Shown in pieces: positions 1-7,980 of a stretch of DNA of 7,980 bases. The notes beneath the pieces were generated by a model that saw only the letters and a list, made by a program, of their open reading frames with translations, did no database searches and was not told the origin of the DNA. Position 1 is the stretch's first letter; every line of letters starts with the position of its first letter. Origin of the DNA: Chloroflexota bacterium (GTDB lineage Bacteria > Chloroflexota > Limnocylindria > Limnocylindrales > CSP1-4). The stretch is taken from assembly GCA_021786915.1 (NCBI GenBank), contig JAJYMP010000255.1:1-7980 (forward strand). The letters run 5' to 3'. The position numbers were made by a program, and so were the translations under genes.

Positions 1-68
1 ACGTCGTCCGCCCGGGCGACGAGATCGAGTTCCAGAAGCAGGCCGGCGTCAAGGGCCTGGGGGCCTGA
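1..68 (+). CDS. C-terminal end of a probable ubiquitin-like modifier (cluster A), partial
   Basis: Only the last 21 codons are present. The reading frame begins at base 3 and stops at TGA 66-68. The visible tail contains RPGDEIEF and ends in GVKGLGA. A PGD-(I/V)-E-(F/V) strand followed by a short glycine-containing tail is typical of the last beta strand and C-terminus of ThiS/MoaD/ubiquitin beta-grasp proteins, whose terminal glycine is activated by an E1. Its position directly before an E2, a JAMM protease and an E1-like gene is where bacterial Ubl operons keep the modifier. The final residue is Ala after Gly, not the usual Gly-Gly. The assignment rests on the short tail plus context. The rest of the gene lies outside the window, so another small protein cannot be excluded. 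Confidence 0.55.
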   Translation, partial: VVRPGDEIEFQKQAGVKGLGA

Positions 69-86
69 CGCCAGCCAGCGCGGAGG

Positions 87-120
87 CCCGGAGCCGGTGG
101 CCCTCCCACCCGGTTCCGGG
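87..120 (+). other. GC-rich hairpin between Ubl and E2 genes
   Basis: The arm at 87-100 (CCCGGAGCCGGTGG) and the arm at 106-120 (CCACCCGGTTCCGGG) are complementary, except for one G-T pair or mismatch and one bulged base, around a 5-base loop. The hairpin lies in the 81-base gap between the first two genes of cluster A. No T-tract follows, so it is not a classical intrinsic terminator. It could stabilise the 3' end of the upstream message or attenuate read-through, leaving more Ubl than enzyme. That role is inference. Confidence 0.5.
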
Positions 121-149
121 CTCCCGCAGCAGAAGGGAGCTCGAACGCC

Positions 150-920
150 ATGCAATCGCGCACGTTCCTGCGCATCGAGGGCGACCTCGTGAGCCTGATC
201 ACGGAGGTCATCGACCGGGAGGTGACGCTCCCGGACCTCATGACCGAACTCACGACAGCTCAGGTCGCCATGACCCCTCGGCTGCCGACCGGCTGCCGCT
301 TCTGGATCCGCTCGGGGACGACGGACCGCCAGGTCTTCGTCGTCGAGCAGCCCCCGTCGCGGCGGACGATCGAGTACCACGCCAGCCGACGCCGGGACAG
401 CGAGCCGACCACCTATCGGCTCGCGCTGCCGTACGTCGTCTTCGTCGTCTGGACGATCGGCGACCAGGTCGAGGGACTAGCCACGTACTTCCGGACGCAG
501 CCGGTCGCGTCCCTCGACGCGACGCTCCTCTGCTCGACCCTGCCGAACACGAACGACGACGGCGTCGTCTGTCTCGGGTCGGTCCGGGTCAGCGGGGCGA
601 GCGTCGGCGAACGGGTCGACGCACTGATCGGCGCGTTCTGGGCGAGCCGCTTCAACCAGGATCTCCGCCGGCACCCGCTGCCCTTCAACGGCGGCTTCCG
701 GGCCTGGGCATCCCGCTCCCGGCGCGATCCGCTCGCGGCCCTGTCCCTGCAATACGACCCGTACTGGCGGACCCTCCGCCAGGTCGTGGCGCAGCTGGCC
801 GGACTCGCGATCACGGATCTGCCGGCCGGGGCACCCTTGCCGGAGGAACCGGCGGAGGCCGAGGTCCTGACCCCGGAACCTATGGCGGACGGAGGTGAGC
901 CCGATGCCCTCGCTTCGTGA
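150..920 (+). CDS. E2-like ubiquitin-conjugating protein, prokaryotic E2 family D / PRTRC protein B type
   Basis: This 256-residue protein is the predicted E2-like carrier of cluster A, expected to take the activated Ubl from the E1-like protein and pass it to targets. Residues 88-145 look like an E2 core: hydrophobic strands (YRLALPYVVFVVW), a YFRT strand, then LPNTNDDGVVCLGSV at 131-145. The P-x-N-x(3)-D-G-x-V-C-x-G pattern resembles the active-site stretch of the PRTRC protein B / Prok-E2_D family, which makes Cys141 the likely thioester residue. Two other cysteines (49, 128) fit no motif. The C-terminal 35 residues are Pro/Glu/Ala-rich and probably disordered. The ATG at 150 has an AAGGGAG site at 133-139. 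The 3' end overlaps the next gene by 17 bases. The family call comes from remembered motif shape, not from a search. The protein also has a long N-terminal region that I do not recognise. Confidence 0.7.
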   Translation: MQSRTFLRIEGDLVSLITEVIDREVTLPDLMTELTTAQVAMTPRLPTGCRFWIRSGTTDRQVFVVEQPPSRRTIEYHASRRRDSEPTTYRLALPYVVFVVWTIGDQVEGLATYFRTQPVASLDATLLCSTLPNTNDDGVVCLGSVRVSGASVGERVDALIGAFWASRFNQDLRRHPLPFNGGFRAWASRSRRDPLAALSLQYDPYWRTLRQVVAQLAGLAITDLPAGAPLPEEPAEAEVLTPEPMADGGEPDALAS

Positions 921-1161
921 CCACCTCATCCGGACGCCGGAGGTCCGCTCTCGGAATCTCAGCGCCTGGATGGCTCCCGCTCTCGGCGAACGAGCGACAC
1001 CGCTGCCCGATCGATTCTTCGAGGAGGCCGCACTGACGGTGCTCGCCCACGTCTTCCGGGATGCGGGTCCCATCCGGGAGCAGCTCGTCTACGAGCGACG
1101 CCGCTTCGAGCGGTTGGTCCAACTCATCCACCGCCTGCCCGAACGGGCCGGAGGTGCGTGA
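904..1161 (+). CDS. small helical protein of cluster A, function unknown
   Basis: This 85-residue protein lies between the E2-like and JAMM genes. I recognise no family. The second half is amphipathic helix: FFEEAALTVLAHVF, then a strongly charged segment EQLVYERRRFERLVQLIHRL at about residues 55-76. There is no cysteine, signal peptide or membrane segment. The start is taken as ATG 904 because GGAGG at 891-895 sits 8 bases upstream; a GTG at 895 lies inside that site and would add three residues. It overlaps the E2 gene by 17 bases, and its stop shares one base with the next ATG (TGATG), so it is translationally coupled on both sides. It is probably an accessory subunit, for example an E2 or E1 partner or a target adaptor, but that rests on context only. 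The terminal Gly-Gly-Ala is encoded by the next gene's ribosome-binding site. Confidence 0.75.
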   Translation: MPSLRDHLIRTPEVRSRNLSAWMAPALGERATPLPDRFFEEAALTVLAHVFRDAGPIREQLVYERRRFERLVQLIHRLPERAGGA

Positions 1162-1988
1162 TGTTTCCGATCCTCGAAGCCGGTCCATCGCTCGAGGGGG
1201 CGACCCTGCCGGCCTTCGTCGTCGCTCGCGACGGGCTCTACCTGCGGAAGCGAAGCCTCCTCGGGCTGAGCCAGACGAAGGTCGGCCGGATCGCCCACCT
1301 GCCGGAGGGCAGGGAGTTCGTCGACTACGCGCTGCCCAAGGTCCCAGCCGACCTGATGGCGCGCGCGGTCGGCTTCTTCCGCGCCGTCTACCGGCTGCAT
1401 AAGACCGAGGCGGCCGTTCTCCTGGTCTGGCGTGACGCAGGCTTCGACCTCGTCGTGCCGGCCCAGAAGGTGTCCAGTGTCTCGGTCAAGTTCGACCTGG
1501 CGGACGGCGACGTGCCGTCCGGCGGTCGACTCGTGGGGACGATCCACTCGCATGGGGGCTTCGGCGCCTATGCGAGCTCGATCGACGAGGACGACGAGGC
1601 GGAGCTCGATGGGCTCCACGTCGTCGTCGGCGACTTCGATCAACGACGGCTCGGCTACTCGGCCGCGATCGTCGTCGACGGCATCCGCTTCTCTCTGAAG
1701 ACCGGTCAGCTCATCGAGCGGCCTCGGCGCCTCGCCGAGCCACCCGACGACTGGCTCCGGAAGGTGAAGCTGGCGCCGCCGCCCCGCCTCAAGGGCAAGC
1801 CGTCGATCAAGGAGTACCTCGCCCGGGGCTTCAAGCCCTCGGACGAGATCTCGAAGCCAAGTCGACGGGAGCTCGACGACGCGATCGAGAAGGCGAGCAA
1901 GCTCGCCACCGCCCTCGGCTACCGCCTCAGCTACTGGCTCGTGCCGGTCTCCGGCTCGAGCGAGAAGGGAGGCACGGCCGATGGCTGA
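1161..1988 (+). CDS. JAB/JAMM metalloprotease, predicted Ubl isopeptidase of cluster A
   Basis: This 275-residue protein is a predicted zinc isopeptidase that would trim the Ubl precursor or remove conjugated Ubl. The JAMM site is complete: His129-Ser-His131, seven residues, Ser139-x-x-Asp142 (in IHSHGGFGAYASSIDEDD), with the expected upstream glutamate at Glu83 (KTEAAVLLVW). The catalytic domain spans roughly residues 60-185. Flanking it are an N-terminal portion of about 60 residues and a C-terminal extension of about 90 basic, Pro/Lys-rich then helical residues (about 190-275), longer than a minimal JAB domain. This layout recalls PRTRC system protein A. ATG 1161 is preferred over GTG 1158 because GGAGG lies at 1150-1154. 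It is coupled to the preceding gene (TGATG) and overlaps the E1 gene by 8 bases. The enzyme class is secure, but its substrate is inferred from neighbours. Confidence 0.9.
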   Translation: MFPILEAGPSLEGATLPAFVVARDGLYLRKRSLLGLSQTKVGRIAHLPEGREFVDYALPKVPADLMARAVGFFRAVYRLHKTEAAVLLVWRDAGFDLVVPAQKVSSVSVKFDLADGDVPSGGRLVGTIHSHGGFGAYASSIDEDDEAELDGLHVVVGDFDQRRLGYSAAIVVDGIRFSLKTGQLIERPRRLAEPPDDWLRKVKLAPPPRLKGKPSIKEYLARGFKPSDEISKPSRRELDDAIEKASKLATALGYRLSYWLVPVSGSSEKGGTADG

Positions 1989-2679
1989 CCGGATCGTCCT
2001 CGTCGGCTGCGGCGGGATCGGGAGCCAGTTGCTCCCGCCGCTCGTCCGCTACCTCGCGAACCGGCCCGAACCGCGCTCGCTCCTGGTCCTCGTCGACGGC
2101 GACGTCTTCGAGCCCGGGAACCGATCGCGACAGGCCTGCTCGACCAGCGATCTGGGCTCGAACAAGGCCGAGGCCCTGGCCCGGGTCGCACGAGACGATG
2201 GGCTCGCCGTCCAGGCCATCCCCGAGTTCCTCGACGAGACCAACGTCCGGTCGATCGTCCGCGAGGGAGACATCGTCCTCCTCGCGGTCGACAACCACCG
2301 GGCGCGGGCCCTCGTCGATCGACATCTCGGATCGCTCGACGACGCGACGCTCATCAGCGGCGGCAACGACGAGACGGACGGCAACGTCCAGCTCGTCCGC
2401 CGCCGTGACGGCTGGTCCGTGGACGGCCATCTGACCGAGATCCACCCGGAGATCGGCATGGCCACTGTAGAGGAACCGCGCGGCGACGGCTGCCAGGCAA
2501 TGGCGGCCGAACATCCGCAGCTCCTCGTGACGAACCTGATGGTCGCCAGCGCGATGCTCAGCTGCCTCTGGCAGATCAGTGAGCGCGGCAGCGTCCCCTA
2601 CAGCGAGGTCTACCTCGACGCCATCCAGAACGCGGCCCGCAGCCGCTCCTGGTTCCGCGTCCCGGCCGGCGCGCAGTAG
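1981..2679 (+). CDS. ThiF/E1-like adenylyltransferase of cluster A
   Basis: This 232-residue E1-like enzyme is predicted to adenylate the C-terminus of the cluster A Ubl using ATP. The Rossmann nucleotide loop is VGCGGIGS (8-15). The acidic LVDGDVFEPGNRSRQ (37-51) gives the conserved Asp39/Asp41 and the N-x-x-R-Q signature (Asn47, Arg50, Gln51). Lys62 (NKAEAL) and Asp104 (LAVDN) fit the conserved lysine and metal-site aspartate. There is no CxxC zinc knuckle, and the protein is shorter than ThiF/MoeB (about 245-270). Cys171, in GDGCQAMAAEHPQ within the crossover region, is a candidate thioester cysteine; Cys53 and Cys195 are alternatives. ATG 1981 has AAGGGAGG at 1965-1972. It is the last gene of cluster A. 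PRTRC-type ThiF proteins are the closest remembered relatives. Confidence 0.9.
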   Translation: MADRIVLVGCGGIGSQLLPPLVRYLANRPEPRSLLVLVDGDVFEPGNRSRQACSTSDLGSNKAEALARVARDDGLAVQAIPEFLDETNVRSIVREGDIVLLAVDNHRARALVDRHLGSLDDATLISGGNDETDGNVQLVRRRDGWSVDGHLTEIHPEIGMATVEEPRGDGCQAMAAEHPQLLVTNLMVASAMLSCLWQISERGSVPYSEVYLDAIQNAARSRSWFRVPAGAQ

Positions 2680-2758
2680 GGAGTGTGGACCCACAGGTGC
2701 ACAACCCGGCCGAGGCGGCGCCCACCGGCGTCCCTCGGCCGAACGATCTCAGGCGGCT
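2680..2758. other. spacer between cluster A and the ATPase/recombinase module
   Basis: This 79-base gap separates the E1-like gene from the ATPase. I see no terminator with a T-run. A GTG-started frame of 29 codons (2685-2774) crosses it but has no convincing family or ribosome site. The sequence becomes unusually AT-rich just after it (about 2756-2795). Confidence 0.5.
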
Positions 2759-3922
2759 TTGTTACAGGACTTGAAACAATTGTCACAAACGCGATCGACG
2801 AACCCGTTCCGACCTGGTAGCGGGATCCTCCCGCCGCTCTTGGCTGGGCGCGAGCGCGAGACGGCTGCCTTCGAGGCGCGCGTTGCGCGGACCCGCGAGG
2901 GCCAGCCGCAGCACACGGCGCTGCTCGGCGAATGGGCGATCGGCAAGACGACGCTCCTGATGCACTGGCGACGCCTGCGACAGCAGGCTGGCGACGCCGT
3001 CGTCCTTTCGATGGCATACCCGCAGTCGGCGGACGAGTTCCTCGCCGGTCTCGTCACGGCGATCGATGCCGAACTTGGGACGGACTGGCCGCGGCGTCTC
3101 GACGTGGAGCTGGGCGTCGATATCGGAATCGCCGACGCTCGGTTCCGCCGGACCGCCCCGAACTCCGAGAGGGAGTTGCGCGCGGCATTGCGACGACTCG
3201 TCGAGCACCGCGCGGACGAGGACCGGTCCGTGGTCGTCTTGCTCGATGACGTCGACCTGCTGCGTGAGACCGGGGACGTGCTCCTGCGCCTGCGCGCCTG
3301 TGCCCTCGAGCTCTACGCGGCCGACCTGCCGCTCGCATTCATCGTGGCGGCGTCCCCAGGCCTGTTCACGGAGGTGCGATCGGCTCACGAGCCGCTGGTC
3401 CGGTTCTTCGAGCCGCTGACTGTCGGTCCGCTCGATGACTCGGACGCCGCGCGAGCCCTGGCCGAACCGCTCGCGGAAACAACCGTTCGATTCGACCCCG
3501 ACGTGGTCGCCGAGATCGTGGACCTCGCCGGCGGACGACCCTACTACCTTCAGAAGCTCGGCTACTACACGTTTGACGCCGCGGGCAACGGGCGGGTCAC
3601 ACAGGCCGAGTTCGCGGTCGCCTTCGAGCGAGCGTTTGCCTCCGTAAGCCAGGAGATCTTCGCCGCTCGCTGGGCCGGTATGTCCCCGATCGACCGCCAG
3701 GTTGTGGCCGTCGTCGCCCGCAGCACCGAGCCGCGCCCCTCGGGCGACATCGAAGCCGAGGCGGCGCGACGCGGAGTGAGGCCGGGAGCCGCCCGGCAAT
3801 CGCTGCGCCGTCTTGCGTCGAAGGGCCAGATCGACCGGCTCGCCAACGGGCACCGCGGCCGTTACGAGGTTCGGGATCGGCTCTTCAAGCGGTACCTGGA
3901 ACTGCAGACATGCGAGCCGTAG
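2759..3922 (+). CDS. AAA-type ATPase with C-terminal winged helix
   Basis: Starting at TTG 2759 gives 387 residues. An N-terminal NPFRPG...PPLLAGRERE leads into a P-loop ATPase. The Walker A is GEWAIGKT (57-64) and the Walker B is VVVLLDD (158-164). A FIVAASPG strand (194-201) and an AGGRPYYLQ segment (about 257-265) follow, as in Orc1/Cdc6-like and archaeal-type AAA ATPases. Residues about 308-380 look like a winged helix (IDRQVVAVVARS...RQSLRRLASKGQI...YEVRDRLFKRYL), which suggests DNA binding. The start is uncertain. No ATG or GTG exists between GTG 2579, deep inside the E1 gene, and the conserved region; TTG 2759, 2771 and 2780 are the choices and none has a well-placed ribosome site. It overlaps the recombinase gene by 13 bases, so the two are probably co-translated and may work together. 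The ATPase class is firm, but its role is unknown. Confidence 0.85.
   Translation: MLQDLKQLSQTRSTNPFRPGSGILPPLLAGRERETAAFEARVARTREGQPQHTALLGEWAIGKTTLLMHWRRLRQQAGDAVVLSMAYPQSADEFLAGLVTAIDAELGTDWPRRLDVELGVDIGIADARFRRTAPNSERELRAALRRLVEHRADEDRSVVVLLDDVDLLRETGDVLLRLRACALELYAADLPLAFIVAASPGLFTEVRSAHEPLVRFFEPLTVGPLDDSDAARALAEPLAETTVRFDPDVVAEIVDLAGGRPYYLQKLGYYTFDAAGNGRVTQAEFAVAFERAFASVSQEIFAARWAGMSPIDRQVVAVVARSTEPRPSGDIEAEAARRGVRPGAARQSLRRLASKGQIDRLANGHRGRYEVRDRLFKRYLELQTCEP
2771..2788. repeat. AT-rich imperfect palindrome at the 5' end of the ATPase gene
   Basis: TTGaaACAATTGTcaCAA is an 18-base imperfect palindrome (14 of 18 positions symmetric) around a perfect ACAATTGT (2776-2783). It stands out in GC-rich surroundings. 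It could be an operator or a recombinase recognition site near the module edge, or simply coding sequence. There is no direct support for any of these. Confidence 0.35.
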
Positions 3923-4860
3923 CCGTCGCAAGCGCTGTTCCCAGACTCGACGAGTTCGCGCTTGCCGACGTCATCTCCGAGTACCTCTCCGCCTTGAAGG
4001 TCGCCGGCAGGAGCCCGAAGACGATCAGTTGGTATGCCGACATGCTCTGGGAGTTCGTCCGGTTCATCGAGCGTGAGGGGGTTCGGGCGACGGTCGCGGA
4101 CGTCGCCCCCGTCGAGGTGCGGCGCTGGCTGCTGGCAATCCAATCACGACGAACGCGAAGCCTTGCCCCAAGCAGCATGGCCGCCCGCGTCCGGACCGTG
4201 AAGGCGTTTGGGACCTGGATCGCGAACGAGCTTGATCTGCCGGCGAACCCGGTTCGGGGTGTGCCGGTTCCTCGTGTCCCCGAACTTCTCGTTCCTAGCC
4301 TTCGGGAACCCGACATCCTTGCCCTTCTAAGAACCCTCGATGCAGGTTCTCAGCAGCCCGAGCGCGACCGGGCGATCGTCCTGCTGCTGCTCGATACGGG
4401 TCTGCGCCTGAGTGAGGCCGCCAACCTTCGAATTCGCGACGTCGACCTCATCGAGGGTCGGTGCCGCGTGATGGGAAAGGGCGGACGAGAGCGCGTAGTG
4501 CCAGTTGGCCGAAAGACCCGTCGCGCTCTCCGTCATTGTCTCGCGCGCCGGGGAAGGCTCCTGCCCGACGAGGCTCTGTTCATCGGCCGCGGTGGTCGGG
4601 CGCTCGCTCCCCGCGGCATTCAGCAGCTCGTCCGCCGACTGAGCCGCCGCACCACGCTCGCGTCGCGATGCTCACCTCACGTCCTTCGCCATACCTTTGC
4701 CCGATCGTTTCTTGCGAACGGTGGCGACGTGTTCTCGCTTCAGCGAATCCTCGGCCACAGCCCATCGTCCCTTCAGGTCACTCGTCGGTACGTCGACCTG
4801 CTCGATGACGACCTCCGCGCGGTACACCGTGAGGCCTCACCGGTCGACCGTCTGGGCTAG
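3910..4860 (+). CDS. tyrosine recombinase (XerC/XerD-like integrase)
   Basis: This 316-residue protein is a site-specific recombinase that cuts and rejoins DNA through a 3'-phosphotyrosine intermediate. A SAM-like N-terminal core-binding domain covers about residues 15-110 (EYLSALKVAGRSPKTISWY). The catalytic domain has every expected residue: Arg166 (DTGLRLSE), Lys190 (MGKGGRER), His257 and Arg260 (HVLRHTFA), His283 (LGHS) and Tyr294 (TRRYVDL). Length is normal for Xer-type enzymes. ATG 3910 lies within the end of the ATPase gene (13-base overlap), with no strong ribosome site of its own, which suggests translational coupling. Because of this pairing and the accessory surroundings, an element-borne recombinase is more likely than the chromosomal dimer-resolution XerC/D. 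Catalytic competence looks intact, but the target site is unknown. Confidence 0.93.
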   Translation: MRAVAVASAVPRLDEFALADVISEYLSALKVAGRSPKTISWYADMLWEFVRFIEREGVRATVADVAPVEVRRWLLAIQSRRTRSLAPSSMAARVRTVKAFGTWIANELDLPANPVRGVPVPRVPELLVPSLREPDILALLRTLDAGSQQPERDRAIVLLLLDTGLRLSEAANLRIRDVDLIEGRCRVMGKGGRERVVPVGRKTRRALRHCLARRGRLLPDEALFIGRGGRALAPRGIQQLVRRLSRRTTLASRCSPHVLRHTFARSFLANGGDVFSLQRILGHSPSSLQVTRRYVDLLDDDLRAVHREASPVDRLG

Positions 4861-4903
4861 CTCCAGGCGGATTGGCCCGCGACGCTCGCGCTGAGCCACC
4901 GTG
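4861..4903. other. convergent intergenic gap
   Basis: These 43 bases separate the ends of the recombinase gene and the minus-strand peptidase gene. The only structure seen is a five-base-pair stem with a three-base loop at 4878-4890 (CGCGA-CGC-TCGCG). It has no T-run, so a bidirectional terminator is not convincing. Confidence 0.4.
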
Positions 4904-5767
4904 TCAGCCGCTTGGGTCCCAGAACAAGATCAGAACCTGGTAGGTCGTATTCACCAGTTCATATTTCACAACGCGGCGCTTGCCCGCTAGATCGATACGA
5001 AGTTCCTCGCCACCGACGACCACTGCGGGTTTGGTCAGATCGGCGGCTGAACGAAGCCAGGTCTCGGGCGGGTCGGCAATCACCACAGGCACCTTCGGCG
5101 GCCCGAATCGCTCAATCCATGACGGCGACGCGGTGACCTCATTGCGGCGGTAACGAAGGGGTTCGCGACTCAGCGGCGATGGTTCCAGCGCGATCGCAAG
5201 CACGGGGCGATGATGAGTCCGTGCAAATGCCCGCAATGTTGCACGGATTGACGCCCCAAAGAGACCCGCGATGGTCACGACCGAGGCCATCTCCAATCGG
5301 TGCTGCGCGGCGATGCGACGGATGAAGTCGTGTTGGAACAGCAGAAGCGAGGCGCCCTCATTGGCCTCCCGTTCAAACAAACGCCGGGTCGCCGGCGAGA
5401 GATCGACGTCGTCGTCGACTACGACGAGATCCGTCTGCCATGGCGCGATGTGATGGACGACTTCATGAAGTCGATTGAAATTTCGTCGCCCGTGGATCGC
5501 GATGGCGGGGTCGAGGTGAATCTCGCGTTCGCGGCGATCGAGCAACGCACGGATCTTGAAGCGAAAGGGAGCGATCGCCGCGCGAAGGTACTGCGGTGCG
5601 CGCGAGAGGACGGAATCGGAGAGGACTGACTCGCTGGCCTCCCGCAGGTTGCCGGCGGCCACGATGTCGTCGATAGGGGTCGGCAATCGTCCGAGCGCGC
5701 CAGCATCCAGGAGGAGCCGGTGGGTCAACCGGCTAATCTCGTCGGGATGCTCGGCATCGCCGGTCAT
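4904..5767 (-). CDS. ImmA/IrrE-type metallopeptidase (M78-like)
   Basis: This 287-residue protein is a predicted zinc metallopeptidase of the ImmA/IrrE (COG2856) type. The HExxH motif is HEVVH at 101-105 (RLHEVVHHIAPW). About 25 residues later FEREANEGASLLLF (131-144) matches the family's second motif, EREAN-x-x-A, with Glu132 or Glu134 as the third metal ligand. An N-terminal helix with a (L/P)xxIDDIV-like stretch is also typical. Residues about 185-287 are a beta-rich extension of unknown role. Relatives such as ImmA and IrrE/DdrO-protease cleave the XRE-family repressor encoded beside them. Here the HTH gene ends two bases upstream on the same strand, so this pair is the expected switch. 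Fewer GC-ending codons than cluster A suggest a separate origin. Confidence 0.85.
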   Translation of the reverse strand: MTGDAEHPDEISRLTHRLLLDAGALGRLPTPIDDIVAAGNLREASESVLSDSVLSRAPQYLRAAIAPFRFKIRALLDRREREIHLDPAIAIHGRRNFNRLHEVVHHIAPWQTDLVVVDDDVDLSPATRRLFEREANEGASLLLFQHDFIRRIAAQHRLEMASVVTIAGLFGASIRATLRAFARTHHRPVLAIALEPSPLSREPLRYRRNEVTASPSWIERFGPPKVPVVIADPPETWLRSAADLTKPAVVVGGEELRIDLAGKRRVVKYELVNTTYQVLILFWDPSG

Positions 5768-5769
5768 CC

Positions 5770-6120
5770 TCAGCCCTCGCGGCTGCGCTCGTGCCGATAC
5801 CAGGACAGGTATCGGGCCAGCTCTTCCACCTCTGCCGCCGAGAGATCCTCTGCATTCAGGGCATGAGCAAGGATATTCACGGAGGCGTCGCCTCGACCCG
5901 CTCGAGGGACGACATGGCCGGCAAGCTCCATTAGGTCTCGATACGGAATGGCCAGTGCTGCCGCCAGGCGATGTAGGACCGCCGGCGACGGTTGCTTGAC
6001 CTCGCCTCGTTCGATCTTCTGAAGATATGGCGGACTGATGCCCGCCTTCGCAGCCGTGCCGCGGAGGGAAAACTCCTTCAGTTCACGGACTTCGCGCAGG
6101 CGTCGTCCGAGATCACCCAT
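5770..6120 (-). CDS. XRE-family HTH transcriptional repressor
   Basis: This 116-residue protein has an N-terminal Cro/C1-type helix-turn-helix: GRRLREVRELKEFSLRGTAA, then GISPPYLQKIERGEVKQPS, then VLHRLAAALAIP (residues about 5-60). The C-terminal half (about 75-116) holds two helices that may dimerise or carry the protease-cleavage site. ATG 6120 is chosen because AAGGAGGA (6132 down to 6125, minus strand) sits just upstream; longer in-frame starts as far as 6501 would run through the opposite Ubl gene. It precedes the ImmA/IrrE peptidase gene by two bases, forming a likely two-gene operon. It is divergent from the cluster B Ubl operon, so it probably represses its own promoter and the Ubl promoter. 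That regulation is inferred from position. Confidence 0.92.
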   Translation of the reverse strand: MGDLGRRLREVRELKEFSLRGTAAKAGISPPYLQKIERGEVKQPSPAVLHRLAAALAIPYRDLMELAGHVVPRAGRGDASVNILAHALNAEDLSAAEVEELARYLSWYRHERSREG

Positions 6121-6151
6121 CGAATCCTCCTTCTCGTTCACCGACGGCGTG

Positions 6152-6166
6152 ACTGTACACTCCAGT
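6152..6166. promoter_or_regulatory. candidate operator in the divergent promoter region
   Basis: ACTGTACACTCCAGT has inverted ACTG/CAGT arms and contains a perfect TGTACA (6154-6159). It covers the proposed -10 element of the leftward promoter and touches the -35 of the rightward one. A dimeric XRE repressor bound here could control both. This is inference from symmetry and position. Confidence 0.35.
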
Positions 6167-6180
6167 TGACATCTTCGCAA
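6152..6180 (-). promoter_or_regulatory. candidate promoter for the XRE/peptidase operon
   Basis: On the minus strand, TTGCGA (6180-6175) is 17 bases from TACAGT (6157-6152). Each hexamer matches four of six sigma-70 consensus bases. Transcription would start about 25 bases before the XRE start codon. Predicted by eye. Confidence 0.4.
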
Positions 6181-6195
6181 CCTCTCAGCTAGCAT
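6166..6195 (+). promoter_or_regulatory. candidate promoter for cluster B Ubl operon
   Basis: A consensus TTGACA at 6166-6171 is followed after 18 bases by TAGCAT (6190-6195), which matches four of six bases of the -10 consensus. The start of transcription would be near 6202, shortly before the GGAGG site (6219-6223) of the Ubl gene. Confidence 0.5.
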
Positions 6196-6228
6196 GGGCC
6201 GCGTAACCCGTAGTGAACGGAGGATCCA

Positions 6229-6510
6229 GTGGTGAACGAACAGGACAAGGTCAGGGACAGCATCAAGGTAACGGTCACTTTCCCCCTCGGCGAGGGGCCC
6301 TACCACGATGACGTGCCACCGGACACGACGGTCGGCGATGTCCGATCGGCAGCCATGCGCGGCTTCGGCGTGACTGAGGATCCGGCATTGCTCTTCTACC
6401 TCATTCACGCCGGCGACAGGATCGACGACGGTCGGACGATCGGCGACGTGGCCGGCCACGCGGCAGCCGTCAAGTTCACCCTCGCCCGCGAGATCATTCA
6501 AGGGGCCTGA
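6229..6510 (+). CDS. ubiquitin-like modifier protein (cluster B)
   Basis: This 93-residue beta-grasp protein is the predicted modifier of cluster B. The first strands are IKVTVTFPL (12-20), then DTTVGDVRSAAMRGFGV for the helix. YLIHAGDRIDDGRTIGDVAG (57-76) closely parallels ubiquitin's LIFAGKQLEDGRTLSDYN: LI, AG, DGRT and the final D are shared, and Ile59 corresponds to ubiquitin Ile44. The last strand VKFTLAREII leads to a Gly-Ala C-terminus instead of Gly-Gly. Lysines are few (7, 13, 82) and ubiquitin's Lys48 position is Asp63. Start is GTG 6229 or GTG 6232, after GGAGG at 6219-6223. Its stop overlaps the E2 start by one base (TGATG). It would be activated by the E1-like protein downstream and perhaps trimmed by the JAMM protease. 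Confidence 0.85.
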   Translation: MVNEQDKVRDSIKVTVTFPLGEGPYHDDVPPDTTVGDVRSAAMRGFGVTEDPALLFYLIHAGDRIDDGRTIGDVAGHAAAVKFTLAREIIQGA

Positions 6511-6947
6511 TGGATATCGAGAGCCAGCTGCGCCTCGACGAGGACGTTGAGGCGGTCGCCTTCTACCTTGACGAGAATGGCGGTCGCCTCGACGCCGATC
6601 CGGCTGGCGAGGCCGGCGTTTGGTGGGCCACGATGCGGCCCCGCACTATCCCCGAGGAGCAGTACTACGTTCGGATCGGCTGGCTCCGATACCCGGACGC
6701 GCCTCCCTCGGTCAAGTTCGGAACCGCCGTCGGCGGTTCACTTGGCATCACGGCCGCGTGGCCCGTCGTGCCGAGCTATCGGCCAGGCAATTTCGATATC
6801 TGCGCTCCGTTCACAAAAGAGGGGTTCGAATCGCATCCGGAGTGGGCCGCCCAGTTCCCGTGGCCCACGACCGGCAACCCTTTTCTGTGGATCGTGGACA
6901 TCGTCCAGGGGCACCTTGACCGCTCGTACCAGGGGCGATCGGGATGA
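6510..6947 (+). CDS. E2-like ubiquitin-conjugating enzyme (cluster B)
   Basis: This 145-residue protein has the size of a minimal E2 fold. YYVRIGWLRYPDAPPSVKF (52-70) reproduces the E2 beta-strand followed by YPxxPPxVxF, which is diagnostic of eukaryotic-type Ubc domains. The only cysteine, Cys98 in GNFDICAPFTKEGF, occupies the position of the catalytic cysteine (compare GSICLDIL), and Trp112 (HPEW) matches the tryptophan that follows. The canonical HPN tripeptide is absent. The end LWIVDIVQGHLDRSY is the C-terminal helix. It is coupled to the Ubl gene by TGATG and to the JAMM gene by ATGA. It would carry the cluster B Ubl as a thioester on Cys98. It differs from the cluster A E2-like protein in length and motifs, so the two are not recent duplicates. 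Confidence 0.85.
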   Translation: MDIESQLRLDEDVEAVAFYLDENGGRLDADPAGEAGVWWATMRPRTIPEEQYYVRIGWLRYPDAPPSVKFGTAVGGSLGITAAWPVVPSYRPGNFDICAPFTKEGFESHPEWAAQFPWPTTGNPFLWIVDIVQGHLDRSYQGRSG

Positions 6948-7429
6948 CCGGTCTCGAACTACCGGCGGCTGCGCTGGCGCGCCTGCTCGCCGATGTCGTT
7001 CGGTTTGGTGACAACGGCCTCGAGACGGGTGCGGTGCTGCTCTCGTCCCGTCGTGACAGTCATGCCGATGTCCTAGCACTGTGCGGCGAGCACGGAATTG
7101 AGCGCCGTCCCGACCAGTTCGTAATAAGTGGCGCCGCCCTCGCCCAACTGTTCGACTGGGCAGACGAGGCAGGGGCCCGGGTTATCGCTCAGGTGCATTC
7201 GCATGGCGGACTCGCGCGGATGTCCCCAACGGACCGACGGTTCGGGCTCACCGTCGAGGGCTTCACGAGCGCCATCGTCCCGCACTTCGGTCGACCGCCA
7301 AATGATCCGGCGGCATGGGGATGGTGGCGGTTTCAGGACCAGGTCTGGGTGCCCTCCGACCCTGGATCAGCTGTAGCGGCCCCGAGCCGGACGGTCATCT
7401 TCGACGAGGAGGGAGTTCGTGCCGGCTGA
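6944..7429 (+). CDS. JAB/JAMM metalloprotease (cluster B)
   Basis: This 161-residue protein is a predicted zinc Ubl peptidase, little more than a JAB domain. Glu27 lies in ETGAVLL, the usual position of the catalytic glutamate. His85-Ser-His87 and Ser94-x-x-Asp97 (VHSHGGLARMSPTD) give the metal site. Only six residues separate the second His from Ser, against seven in the textbook HxHx7SxxD. The JAMM protein of cluster A has seven, so the spacing is family-specific or slightly degenerate. The C-terminal region contains PHFGRPPNDPAAWGWWRF, a loop and strand seen in bacterial JAB proteins of Ubl operons. The start ATG overlaps the E2 stop (ATGA) and the 3' end overlaps the E1 gene by 11 bases. 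It probably processes the Gly-Ala tail or reverses conjugation. Confidence 0.87.
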   Translation: MTGLELPAAALARLLADVVRFGDNGLETGAVLLSSRRDSHADVLALCGEHGIERRPDQFVISGAALAQLFDWADEAGARVIAQVHSHGGLARMSPTDRRFGLTVEGFTSAIVPHFGRPPNDPAAWGWWRFQDQVWVPSDPGSAVAAPSRTVIFDEEGVRAG

Positions 7430-7980
7430 TCACTCCCGCGCGCTTCTCCTCGGGCAGAACGTGACCGACCAGCCGCAGAGCGAGCTCGCTCAGCGACTCG
7501 AGGGCGCGAGCGTTTCGATCGACATCGACCTCGGCATTCCCGGTGCTGTCTTGACCGCGTCGATCCTCGTTCGGACCCTCCGGCGCCTCCCTGGGCGCAT
7601 TTCGATCGACCCCGATGAACTGCCCACCTCGCTGGTCGAGCGGCTCCGCGTCGAGGCCGAGGCCATCGATCCGGATCGACCCATCGCCGTTGGCCGGCCT
7701 CGGGCTGGTGACACGATCATCCGAATCGGCACCACGGGGCCGCCCGGGTCATTGCGCGTCATCCCAGATCTGCACGGCTTCCGCCTCTCGTGGGCGAGCA
7801 ACTCCCTTCAACAGGGGAAACCTGCTTCCGCTCTGGGATCGGCCGCGGCTGCTGCTGCTGCCGCCGCCGAGACCTTCAAGGTGGCGGCCCGCGTAATCGG
7901 AGTTCGGGGCCGTCGCCATCGCCGTCTGGCATGGTGCCCGGTCACACTTTCCCATCGGCCCGCTCAAGGCCCGGATCTTC
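7419..7980 (+). CDS. N-terminal part of E1/ThiF-type adenylyltransferase (cluster B), partial
   Basis: An open frame from GTG 7419 runs off the window (187 complete codons). GAGGAGGGAG at 7406-7415 is its ribosome site, inside the JAMM gene, and the two genes overlap by 11 bases. The visible part fits the N-terminal, catalytically inactive domain found ahead of the ThiF domain in bacterial E1s of Ubl operons: VRTLRRLPGRISID, HGFRLSWAS, then a small-residue helix and ETFKVAARVIG, like the aaEvFK helix of that family, then LAWCPVTLS. The ATP-binding GxGxxG and the catalytic cysteine would lie beyond the window. The helix contains nine consecutive alanines (142-150) from a GCN codon run at 7842-7868. 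The assignment leans on operon position and these motifs. Confidence 0.72.
   Translation, partial: MPADHSRALLLGQNVTDQPQSELAQRLEGASVSIDIDLGIPGAVLTASILVRTLRRLPGRISIDPDELPTSLVERLRVEAEAIDPDRPIAVGRPRAGDTIIRIGTTGPPGSLRVIPDLHGFRLSWASNSLQQGKPASALGSAAAAAAAAAETFKVAARVIGVRGRRHRRLAWCPVTLSHRPAQGPDL
7842..7868 (+). repeat. GCN triplet run encoding nine alanines
   Basis: Nine consecutive alanine codons, including four GCT in a row and three GCC in a row, lie inside the E1-like gene. It reads as a low-complexity helix before ETFK, at a place where the family already favours small residues. Triplet slippage could vary its length without breaking the frame. Confidence 0.8.

Follow-up and report, generated by a model that had tools for sequence, protein, structure and literature searches.

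The stretch of DNA analysed here, called the window below, comprises the 7,980 nt of contig JAJYMP010000255.1, and coordinates given without a contig name are counted from its position 1. It carries two gene sets for the conjugation of ubiquitin-like (Ubl) proteins, cluster A and cluster B, both on the forward strand. Operons of the Ubl-E1-E2-JAMM type occur in several kinds that are anti-phage systems. In the window two known kinds of system co-occur, and of these A looks like the core of an element and B like defence cargo.

Two Ubl gene sets in one stretch

Cluster A reads Ubl, E2, an 88-aa protein, JAMM and E1 and its last stop codon is at 2679. Cluster B reads Ubl, E2, JAMM and E1 and begins at 6229, 3.55 kb further on. 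Between the two lie genes for an AAA ATPase, a tyrosine recombinase, an ImmA-type peptidase and an XRE-type repressor. An initial annotation of the window had described two different Ubl-conjugation operons in tandem, and the family matches of both gene sets confirm this; its interpretation is borne out in part. Its view that they are not a tandem duplication also stands, since the best families of A and B differ, as do the active-site candidates of the E2 proteins (LPNTxDDGxVCLG in A, NFDIC in B). The homologues found for both sets, 338 matches for the JAMM protein of A (120 of them listed) and 63 proteins for the E2 of B, exclude chance gene sets. The gene order Ubl, E2, JAMM, E1 that was given for each cluster is correct for B; in A the gene for the 88-aa protein, which had been overlooked, stands between E2 and JAMM.

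The whole window is contained at 99.6% identity in contig L002 (JAJZRQ010000005.1, from a metagenome-assembled genome named Chloroflexi bacterium), which was used to read the sequence on both sides. The two differ at 32 positions in total, all within 44-527, as would be expected if the left end were a mosaic or another copy, and the remainder is identical. The closest homologue of the JAMM protein of A among the matches listed (94% identity) comes from a Limnocylindrales bacterium, and the host of the element is probably a member of the Limnocylindrales in the Chloroflexota.

Cassette A

The window begins within the Ubl gene of cassette A (Ubl-A), of which the last 21 codons are present (1-68, coding 3-68), reading ...AGVKG followed by LGA and a stop codon; the complete gene, of 80 aa, is at L002 8670-8912. 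A search of 30 contigs for Ubl-A gave 25 matches, of which 24 had a readable tail, that of L095 being masked. All 24 have AGVKG, with one or three variable residues after it. E2-A (150-920, 256 aa) resembles Prok-E2_D and PRTRC_B, with E-values of 1.1e-4 for the Pfam model, which is under the Pfam cut-off, and 3.9e-4 for the NCBIfam model, and has a candidate catalytic Cys141 in LPNTNDDGVVCLG. JAMM-A (1158-1988, 276 aa) matches PRTRC_A (3e-8). E1-A (1981-2679, 232 aa) is a compact ThiF protein with R50, K62 and a single invariant cysteine, Cys171 (Pfam ThiF 4.7e-19; NCBIfam PRTRC_ThiF 7.1e-19). In alignments from which truncated and frameshifted copies were excluded, Cys141 of E2-A and Cys171 of E1-A are invariant among 24 sequences, the window included, and E84, H130, H132, S140 and D143 of JAMM-A are unchanged in 25.

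Read from these sequences, cassette A would be a functioning conjugation cycle. JAMM-A or another peptidase would trim Ubl-A to the terminal glycine of ...VKG, E1-A would activate it by its ThiF fold, E2-A would transfer it to a target by way of Cys141, and JAMM-A would later take it off. The 88-aa protein (895-1161; 85 aa from the first ATG) has no meaningful family match in Pfam, PADLOC or NCBIfam. It could be aligned in 22 sequences, that of the window among them, is weakly conserved and gives a mostly helical model of poor quality (pLDDT 59).

The best NCBIfam matches of JAMM-A, E2-A and E1-A are thus PRTRC_A, PRTRC_B and PRTRC_ThiF, and the plasmid relatives of the ThiF protein are mostly annotated as PRTRC ThiF (20 listed of 96). 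The scores all lie below the curated cut-offs, at 33.5 against 101.8 bits for PRTRC_A, 19.9 against 131.45 for PRTRC_B and 68.1 against 144.75 for PRTRC_ThiF. No PRTRC ParB above cut-off was found in any of the 15 genomes that carry A, and the listed matches below it are on contigs other than those of the A loci. On these two grounds membership of PRTRC proper was rejected. Cassette A further differs from a PRTRC cassette in its extra 88-aa protein and in its neighbours, which are AAA ATPase and recombinase genes and, in 11 of 33 loci, T4CP-like and Replic_Relax genes. Among the PADLOC models, those for E1-E2 proteins match E1-A (best 6.9e-13), and BilD matches it weakly (9.5e-7), as it does ThiF-fold proteins; no PADLOC family matches E2-A, the 88-aa protein or JAMM-A. 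PRTRC-like JAMM and ThiF proteins with 24-38% identity to those of A were also seen on four IMG/VR contigs of 121-248 kb (L025, L026, L027 and L028), three of which have an E2 as well.

Upstream of Ubl-A, at L002 8455-8600 and so about 70-215 nt 5' of its start, is a noncoding leader that is conserved in 14 loci. Compensatory changes were seen in 5 of its 42 predicted base pairs, one of them from C-G to U-A in 4 of the 14 loci. The leader matches no Rfam family, a scan of L002 7800-20000 giving tRNA only. A conserved open reading frame at this place was considered and rejected, as reading frames are not kept.

The Bil-like operon and its regulator

Cluster B is a Bil-like operon, as one of the two operons had been annotated. 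PADLOC models match its Ubl to BilA (6229-6510; 1.7e-8) and its JAMM peptidase to BilC (6944-7429; 1.6e-12). The E1 gene (7419-7980) continues past the end of the window; the part within it scores 0.008 against BilD and the full-length protein of L002 (16262-17776, 504 aa) scores 1.7e-14. The E2 (6510-6947) has no Pfam match and reaches only 0.021 against BilB. It aligns with the E2 of the Bil operon on the Deinococcus aetherius plasmid pDAETH-1 (32% over 143 residues), which itself scores just 0.0048 against BilB. The pDAETH-1 operon has the same four-gene order following an XRE regulator, and its proteins are 31-34% identical to those of cluster B over the aligned parts.

Judged by its sequences, cluster B is a Bil-like variant and not a typical Bil. 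Its BilA, of 93 aa and ending in QGA, has by length one beta-grasp unit and matches only positions 79-158 of the 162 in the profile, whereas published BilA has two consecutive Ubl domains (PMC11354881, available part); the Deinococcus BilA is likewise single-unit (104 aa). In the BilB-like E2 the candidate catalytic C98, within NFDIC, and E104 are invariant among 21 sequences. This is the +6 spacing of C and E in the published CEHH motif, in which, according to the accessible part of the same paper, histidines follow at +8 and +13. The only invariant histidine in the present family is H109, at +11.

On the reverse strand, divergent from the bil operon, are an ImmA/IrrE-type peptidase (4904-5767) with an HEVVH motif and an XRE-family repressor of 116 aa (5770-6120). 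The peptidase matches PADLOC capP (8.5e-12), and Pfam Peptidase_M78 at 0.001, under the cut-off; the repressor is CapH-like by position. A divergent helix-turn-helix (HTH) repressor with an HExxH peptidase before an immune operon is the arrangement of CapH/CapP, which respond to single-stranded DNA and control immune operons (PMC13373217, as far as available). A promoter search between the regulator and bilA found a single predicted sigma-70-type promoter (6166-6195, forward strand; 10/12 consensus, 18-nt spacer), the mean for shuffled sequences being 0.0. The overlapping 9-nt palindromic arms at 6151-6162 are a possible operator. The Bil operon would be under CapH/CapP control and would act against phage.

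A proteasome-fold gene after bilD

In L002 bilD (stop at 17776) is immediately followed, just past the end of the window, by a gene for a 272-aa protein (17783-18601). This gene is a further difference between cluster B and Bil. The AlphaFold model of the protein (pLDDT 86.7) matches subunits of the 20S proteasome and Anbu, with a best E-value of 1.9e-8. Among the 50 matches listed, the template-modelling scores against proteasome folds are 0.44-0.55 by query length, at 11-17% identity. By sequence the likeness is faint: the Pfam Proteasome model gives only 0.047 for this protein, and no protein of the whole L002 genome matches it at E 0.001. The family has 741 matches. In 31 aligned sequences position 2 is Ser or Thr and Lys41 is invariant, and these are read here as sitting where the proteasome has Thr1 and Lys33. 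The Ser or Thr at position 2, the lack of a relative in the PDB by sequence and the position directly after a Ubl E1 gene set the protein apart from Anbu and the other proteasome homologues. Sequence searches found no solved relatives of BilB or BilD either.

A homologue with 96% identity is present in metagenomes. Among 400 Chloroflexota genomes the family was matched in 18, with E-values under 1e-60 in 7 of these. Eight other Chloroflexota loci of the family were read with their surroundings, and there tblastn finds no BilA-D, no A and no other cargo Ubl proteins. A general partnership of Bil with an N-terminal nucleophile (Ntn) hydrolase is therefore not supported, and a single operon links the proteasome-fold gene to Bil. 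According to the part available of a survey of proteasome homologues, its authors found no genomic context that points to a function (PMC8665760); here a member of one family of proteasome homologues gains a context beside Ubl enzymes. One BilB homologue and one homologue of the Ntn protein are on contigs that are both 4582 long, which may be chance.

Elements that carry cassette A

In total 33 A loci were read (L001-L024, L093-L098 and L156-L158; L154 and L155 repeat L003 and L016 and were not counted). Cassette A is present in 15 of the 126 genomes of the order of L002, and a single genome can have as many as 5 matches. The usual order of genes is A, AAA ATPase, in some loci an Xer-like recombinase, cargo, terminal integrase and tRNA gene. 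In the window these are an AAA_16 ATPase (2759-3922, family match, start codon uncertain) and a XerC/D-like tyrosine recombinase (3910-4860, family match) that borders the cargo slot, both on the forward strand; the integrase and tRNA of this copy are present on L002. The AAA gene, or at least a piece of it, follows the ThiF gene in 29 of the 30 loci read past ThiF, being absent in L021 and a remnant in L018; in L015 cargo precedes it. The Xer-like recombinase, on the same strand as A, is found in 12 loci and as a remnant in L018. The terminal integrase is either a tyrosine integrase on the opposite strand or a serine recombinase, and a tRNA gene adjoins it in 11 of the 24 loci scanned. Upstream of A, T4CP-like and Replic_Relax genes occur in 11 of the 33 loci, some of these genes being fragments at the end of a contig, and an M23 peptidase accompanies them in some loci.

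Cassette A is hence the constant part of apparently integrative elements, probably of the Limnocylindrales, and this gives a PRTRC-like Ubl cassette a place at the constant core of such elements. PRTRC cassettes are carried on plasmids or mobile elements. The same may be true of A, to judge by its several copies in some genomes, the integrases, the tRNA genes and the T4CP-like genes of the 11 loci; attachment repeats of the element were not found. Mobile elements with Ubl operons have been described before: in 2006 Iyer and colleagues reported several types of E1/E2/JAB operon, some of them in ICE-like (integrative and conjugative element-like) elements and plasmids, and proposed roles like restriction or addiction (PMC1779556, in the part available). 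In L010 an exact repeat of 51 bp (5778-5828 and 9334-9384) covers about half of a tRNA-Arg gene, which suggests that a further insertion took place beyond the tRNA.

The cargo slot

In 15 loci the slot is complete up to the terminal integrase (L001, L002, L006, L008, L010, L014, L015, L016, L018, L021, L022, L024, L093, L095 and L096). The cargo varies across these sister elements and includes Bil, a Bub-type set, a Ubl-E2 with an E1, NACHT, TIR and HATPase. The cargo of L008, L021 and L024 consists of PIN, HTH-M78, multiubiquitin, a DUF6791-ThiF E1 and DUF6527 (in L021, 2.6e-19 for multiubiquitin and 4.8e-26 for DUF6527); as read, a frameshift interrupts the E1 gene of L024. The last three genes are a set which we take to be Bub. 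This Bub-type cargo, with its HTH-M78 regulator, occupies the slot where the window has Bil, and in L021 and L008 the regulator is a single gene as against the two separate genes of the window. Bub is among the operons that have CapW or CapH/CapP alongside, according to the part of PMC13373217 that is available. In L018 the cargo is a fused Ubl-E2 candidate with an E1 (ThiF 1e-34). Pfam gives only ThiF for this E1, the N-terminal part of which is read here as JAB-like, and for the Ubl a multiubiquitin match of 0.057, below threshold.

As L008 1-12056 and L024 8759-20823 are 98.9% identical over 12 kb, they were counted as one element. Second Ubl systems occur in 5 of the 15 complete slots, or 4 of 14 distinct elements, and in 5 of the 33 loci overall. 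In the cassette tree, printed without support values, these four elements come from three regions, and L018 is near L021. The remaining ten of the 15 slots contain HATPase (L014), TIR (L015, between E1-A and the AAA gene), NACHT (L022), genes that were not identified (L093 and L096) or little or nothing (L001, L006, L010, L016 and L095). The bins that contain the L008/L024 element carry the names Chloroflexi MnB_4 and Acidimicrobiia FR_1, so that its near-identity is either recent transfer or mis-binning. A PIN gene at a contig end in the slot of L004 (8900-9295) is 86% identical to the one that precedes Bub in L021, and a Bub operon may follow it beyond the end of the contig.

The pairing of A with Bil to which the initial annotation drew attention is itself rare, and the situation it had named as contrary to a meaningful pairing, related genomes with one cluster only, very nearly applies to Bil. 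The BilB of the window was found in 1 of the 126 genomes of the order, against 15 for A, and in 1 of 400 in a sample of the phylum, where scoring was limited to 9 candidates per genome; both times it was the genome of L002. Remoter Bil could be missed, since the family found with this query is narrow (63 proteins). A fixed pair of A and Bil was accordingly rejected, and what recurs is the presence of a second Ubl system beside A.

Whether A slots favour such systems was judged against a single yardstick defence domain, TIR_2. DUF6791 was found in 4 of the 126 genomes and 2 of its 4 loci are in A slots; of the others, one has no A in the 20 kb read of a 25.5-kb contig (that genome has an A locus on another contig) and one is at a contig end. 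Of the 24 TIR_2 loci, found in 16 genomes, one is in an A slot and another shares a contig with A at a distance of 28 kb. Fisher's test for 2/4 against 1/24 gives p = 0.045, a post hoc value, DUF6791 having been picked after it was seen in A slots, from one yardstick family and uncorrected for kinship. With Bil and the L018 type included, the comparison becomes 4/6 against 1/24 (p = 0.0026), and the figure at the level of genomes is 4/5. These figures are biased, as the added queries came from A elements, and DUF6791 alone was therefore relied on. A preference of A slots for Ubl systems is thus a lead and not a result.

Origin of the two systems

The best explanation, which we regard as probable with some reserve, is that a mobile element with its own PRTRC-like Ubl cassette carries a damage-inducible Bil system as slot cargo. 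The window would be a piece of a Chloroflexota element, probably an integrative one, with cassette A as its constant part, followed by the AAA ATPase, the Xer-like recombinase, the cargo slot and a second integrase beside a tRNA gene. Cassette A would serve the upkeep or transfer of this element and not defence. Bil, which appears to be the cargo of this copy, would be an anti-phage operon under a divergent pair of the CapH/CapP type. DNA damage or phage would lead to single-stranded DNA, on which the peptidase would cleave the repressor and so release the TTGACA promoter, and BilABCD would then tag phage structural proteins, as Bil reportedly does. The proteasome-fold hydrolase would be encoded by the last gene of the operon. 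Two Ubl systems would be found on one element because the slot gathers defence modules and Ubl systems recur among these.

Several observations weigh against this explanation. Cassette A lacks ParB and falls below the PRTRC cut-offs, and the match of E1-A to the PADLOC E1-E2 models would fit a defence role for A. On the 65.7-kb contig of the window copy tblastn with the M23, T4CP-like and Replic_Relax proteins of sister loci gives no match, and the 47 kb to the left of its tRNA-Gln gene contain no exact 12-nt match to that gene; 1.9 kb to the right of this gene there is another complete tRNA-Gln. A test for repeats with 15-nt words in 11 loci gave a sole repeat, that of L010, on the far side of the tRNA. 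All 23 named A loci are from metagenome-assembled genomes. Of the marks of an integrative and conjugative element, then, the window copy shows the integrase and the tRNA, and neither flanking repeats nor relatives of conjugation genes were found on its contig. Its mobility would accordingly follow from that of its relatives, the term integrative from architecture and copy number, and the term conjugative fits its relatives at most.

The initial annotation had proposed layered defence, in which A would itself be anti-phage and stacked with Bil. Besides the matches of E1-A to PADLOC E1-E2 models (6.9e-13) and BilD (9.5e-7), this could call on the defence cargo that adjoins A and on the several kinds of Ubl-E1-E2-JAMM operon that are anti-phage. 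It is nevertheless unlikely and not supported for A, which stays constant while cargo varies, is PRTRC-like, has conjugation-type genes near it in 11 of 33 loci and gives no PADLOC match for any of its proteins tested but E1-A. A functional link between the two systems is also improbable. Here A would favour, control or share targets with the second Ubl system of the slot, for example if JAMM-A trimmed or deconjugated the Ubls of the cargo, and this would select for Ubl cargo. The three kinds of second system in the same slot, spread over three parts of the cassette tree, agree with this, as does the DUF6791 comparison (p = 0.045). Against it, every second system has its own E1 and Bil also its own E2 and JAMM, 10 of the 15 complete slots have no recognised Ubl system, Bub is also found without A in the 20 kb read of one contig, and the counts of 1/1 for Bil and for the L018 type are biased by queries taken from A elements.

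That the two systems are accidental neighbours, A being a fixed chromosomal gene set or that of a decayed island and Bil having arrived by chance, is very improbable. Such an account would suit the single genome of 126 with both A and Bil and the missing attachment repeats; it sits badly with the several copies of A in some genomes, the recurrence of A, AAA, integrase and tRNA in that order, and the second Ubl systems in 4 distinct elements. A bolder idea is that PRTRC-like Ubl elements preferentially recruit second Ubl systems, the resident cycle acting on or gating that of the cargo, with Bil tagging feeding a dedicated proteasome-fold hydrolase. This is a long shot; if Bil tagging did feed the hydrolase, it would be a bacterial ubiquitin-like degradation pathway in immunity.

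The locus offers a natural setting for direct tests of orthogonality or cross-talk, with two independent bacterial ubiquitin-like cycles in the same cell and on the same element. Among the papers listed by the literature searches none was on a PRTRC-like cassette with Bil or Bub, and none on the A element family, its constant PRTRC-like cassette, repeated second Ubl cargo or Bil with a proteasome-fold gene. Just to the left of the cassette region, L002 also carries MerB and MerR-type genes (5238-7572).

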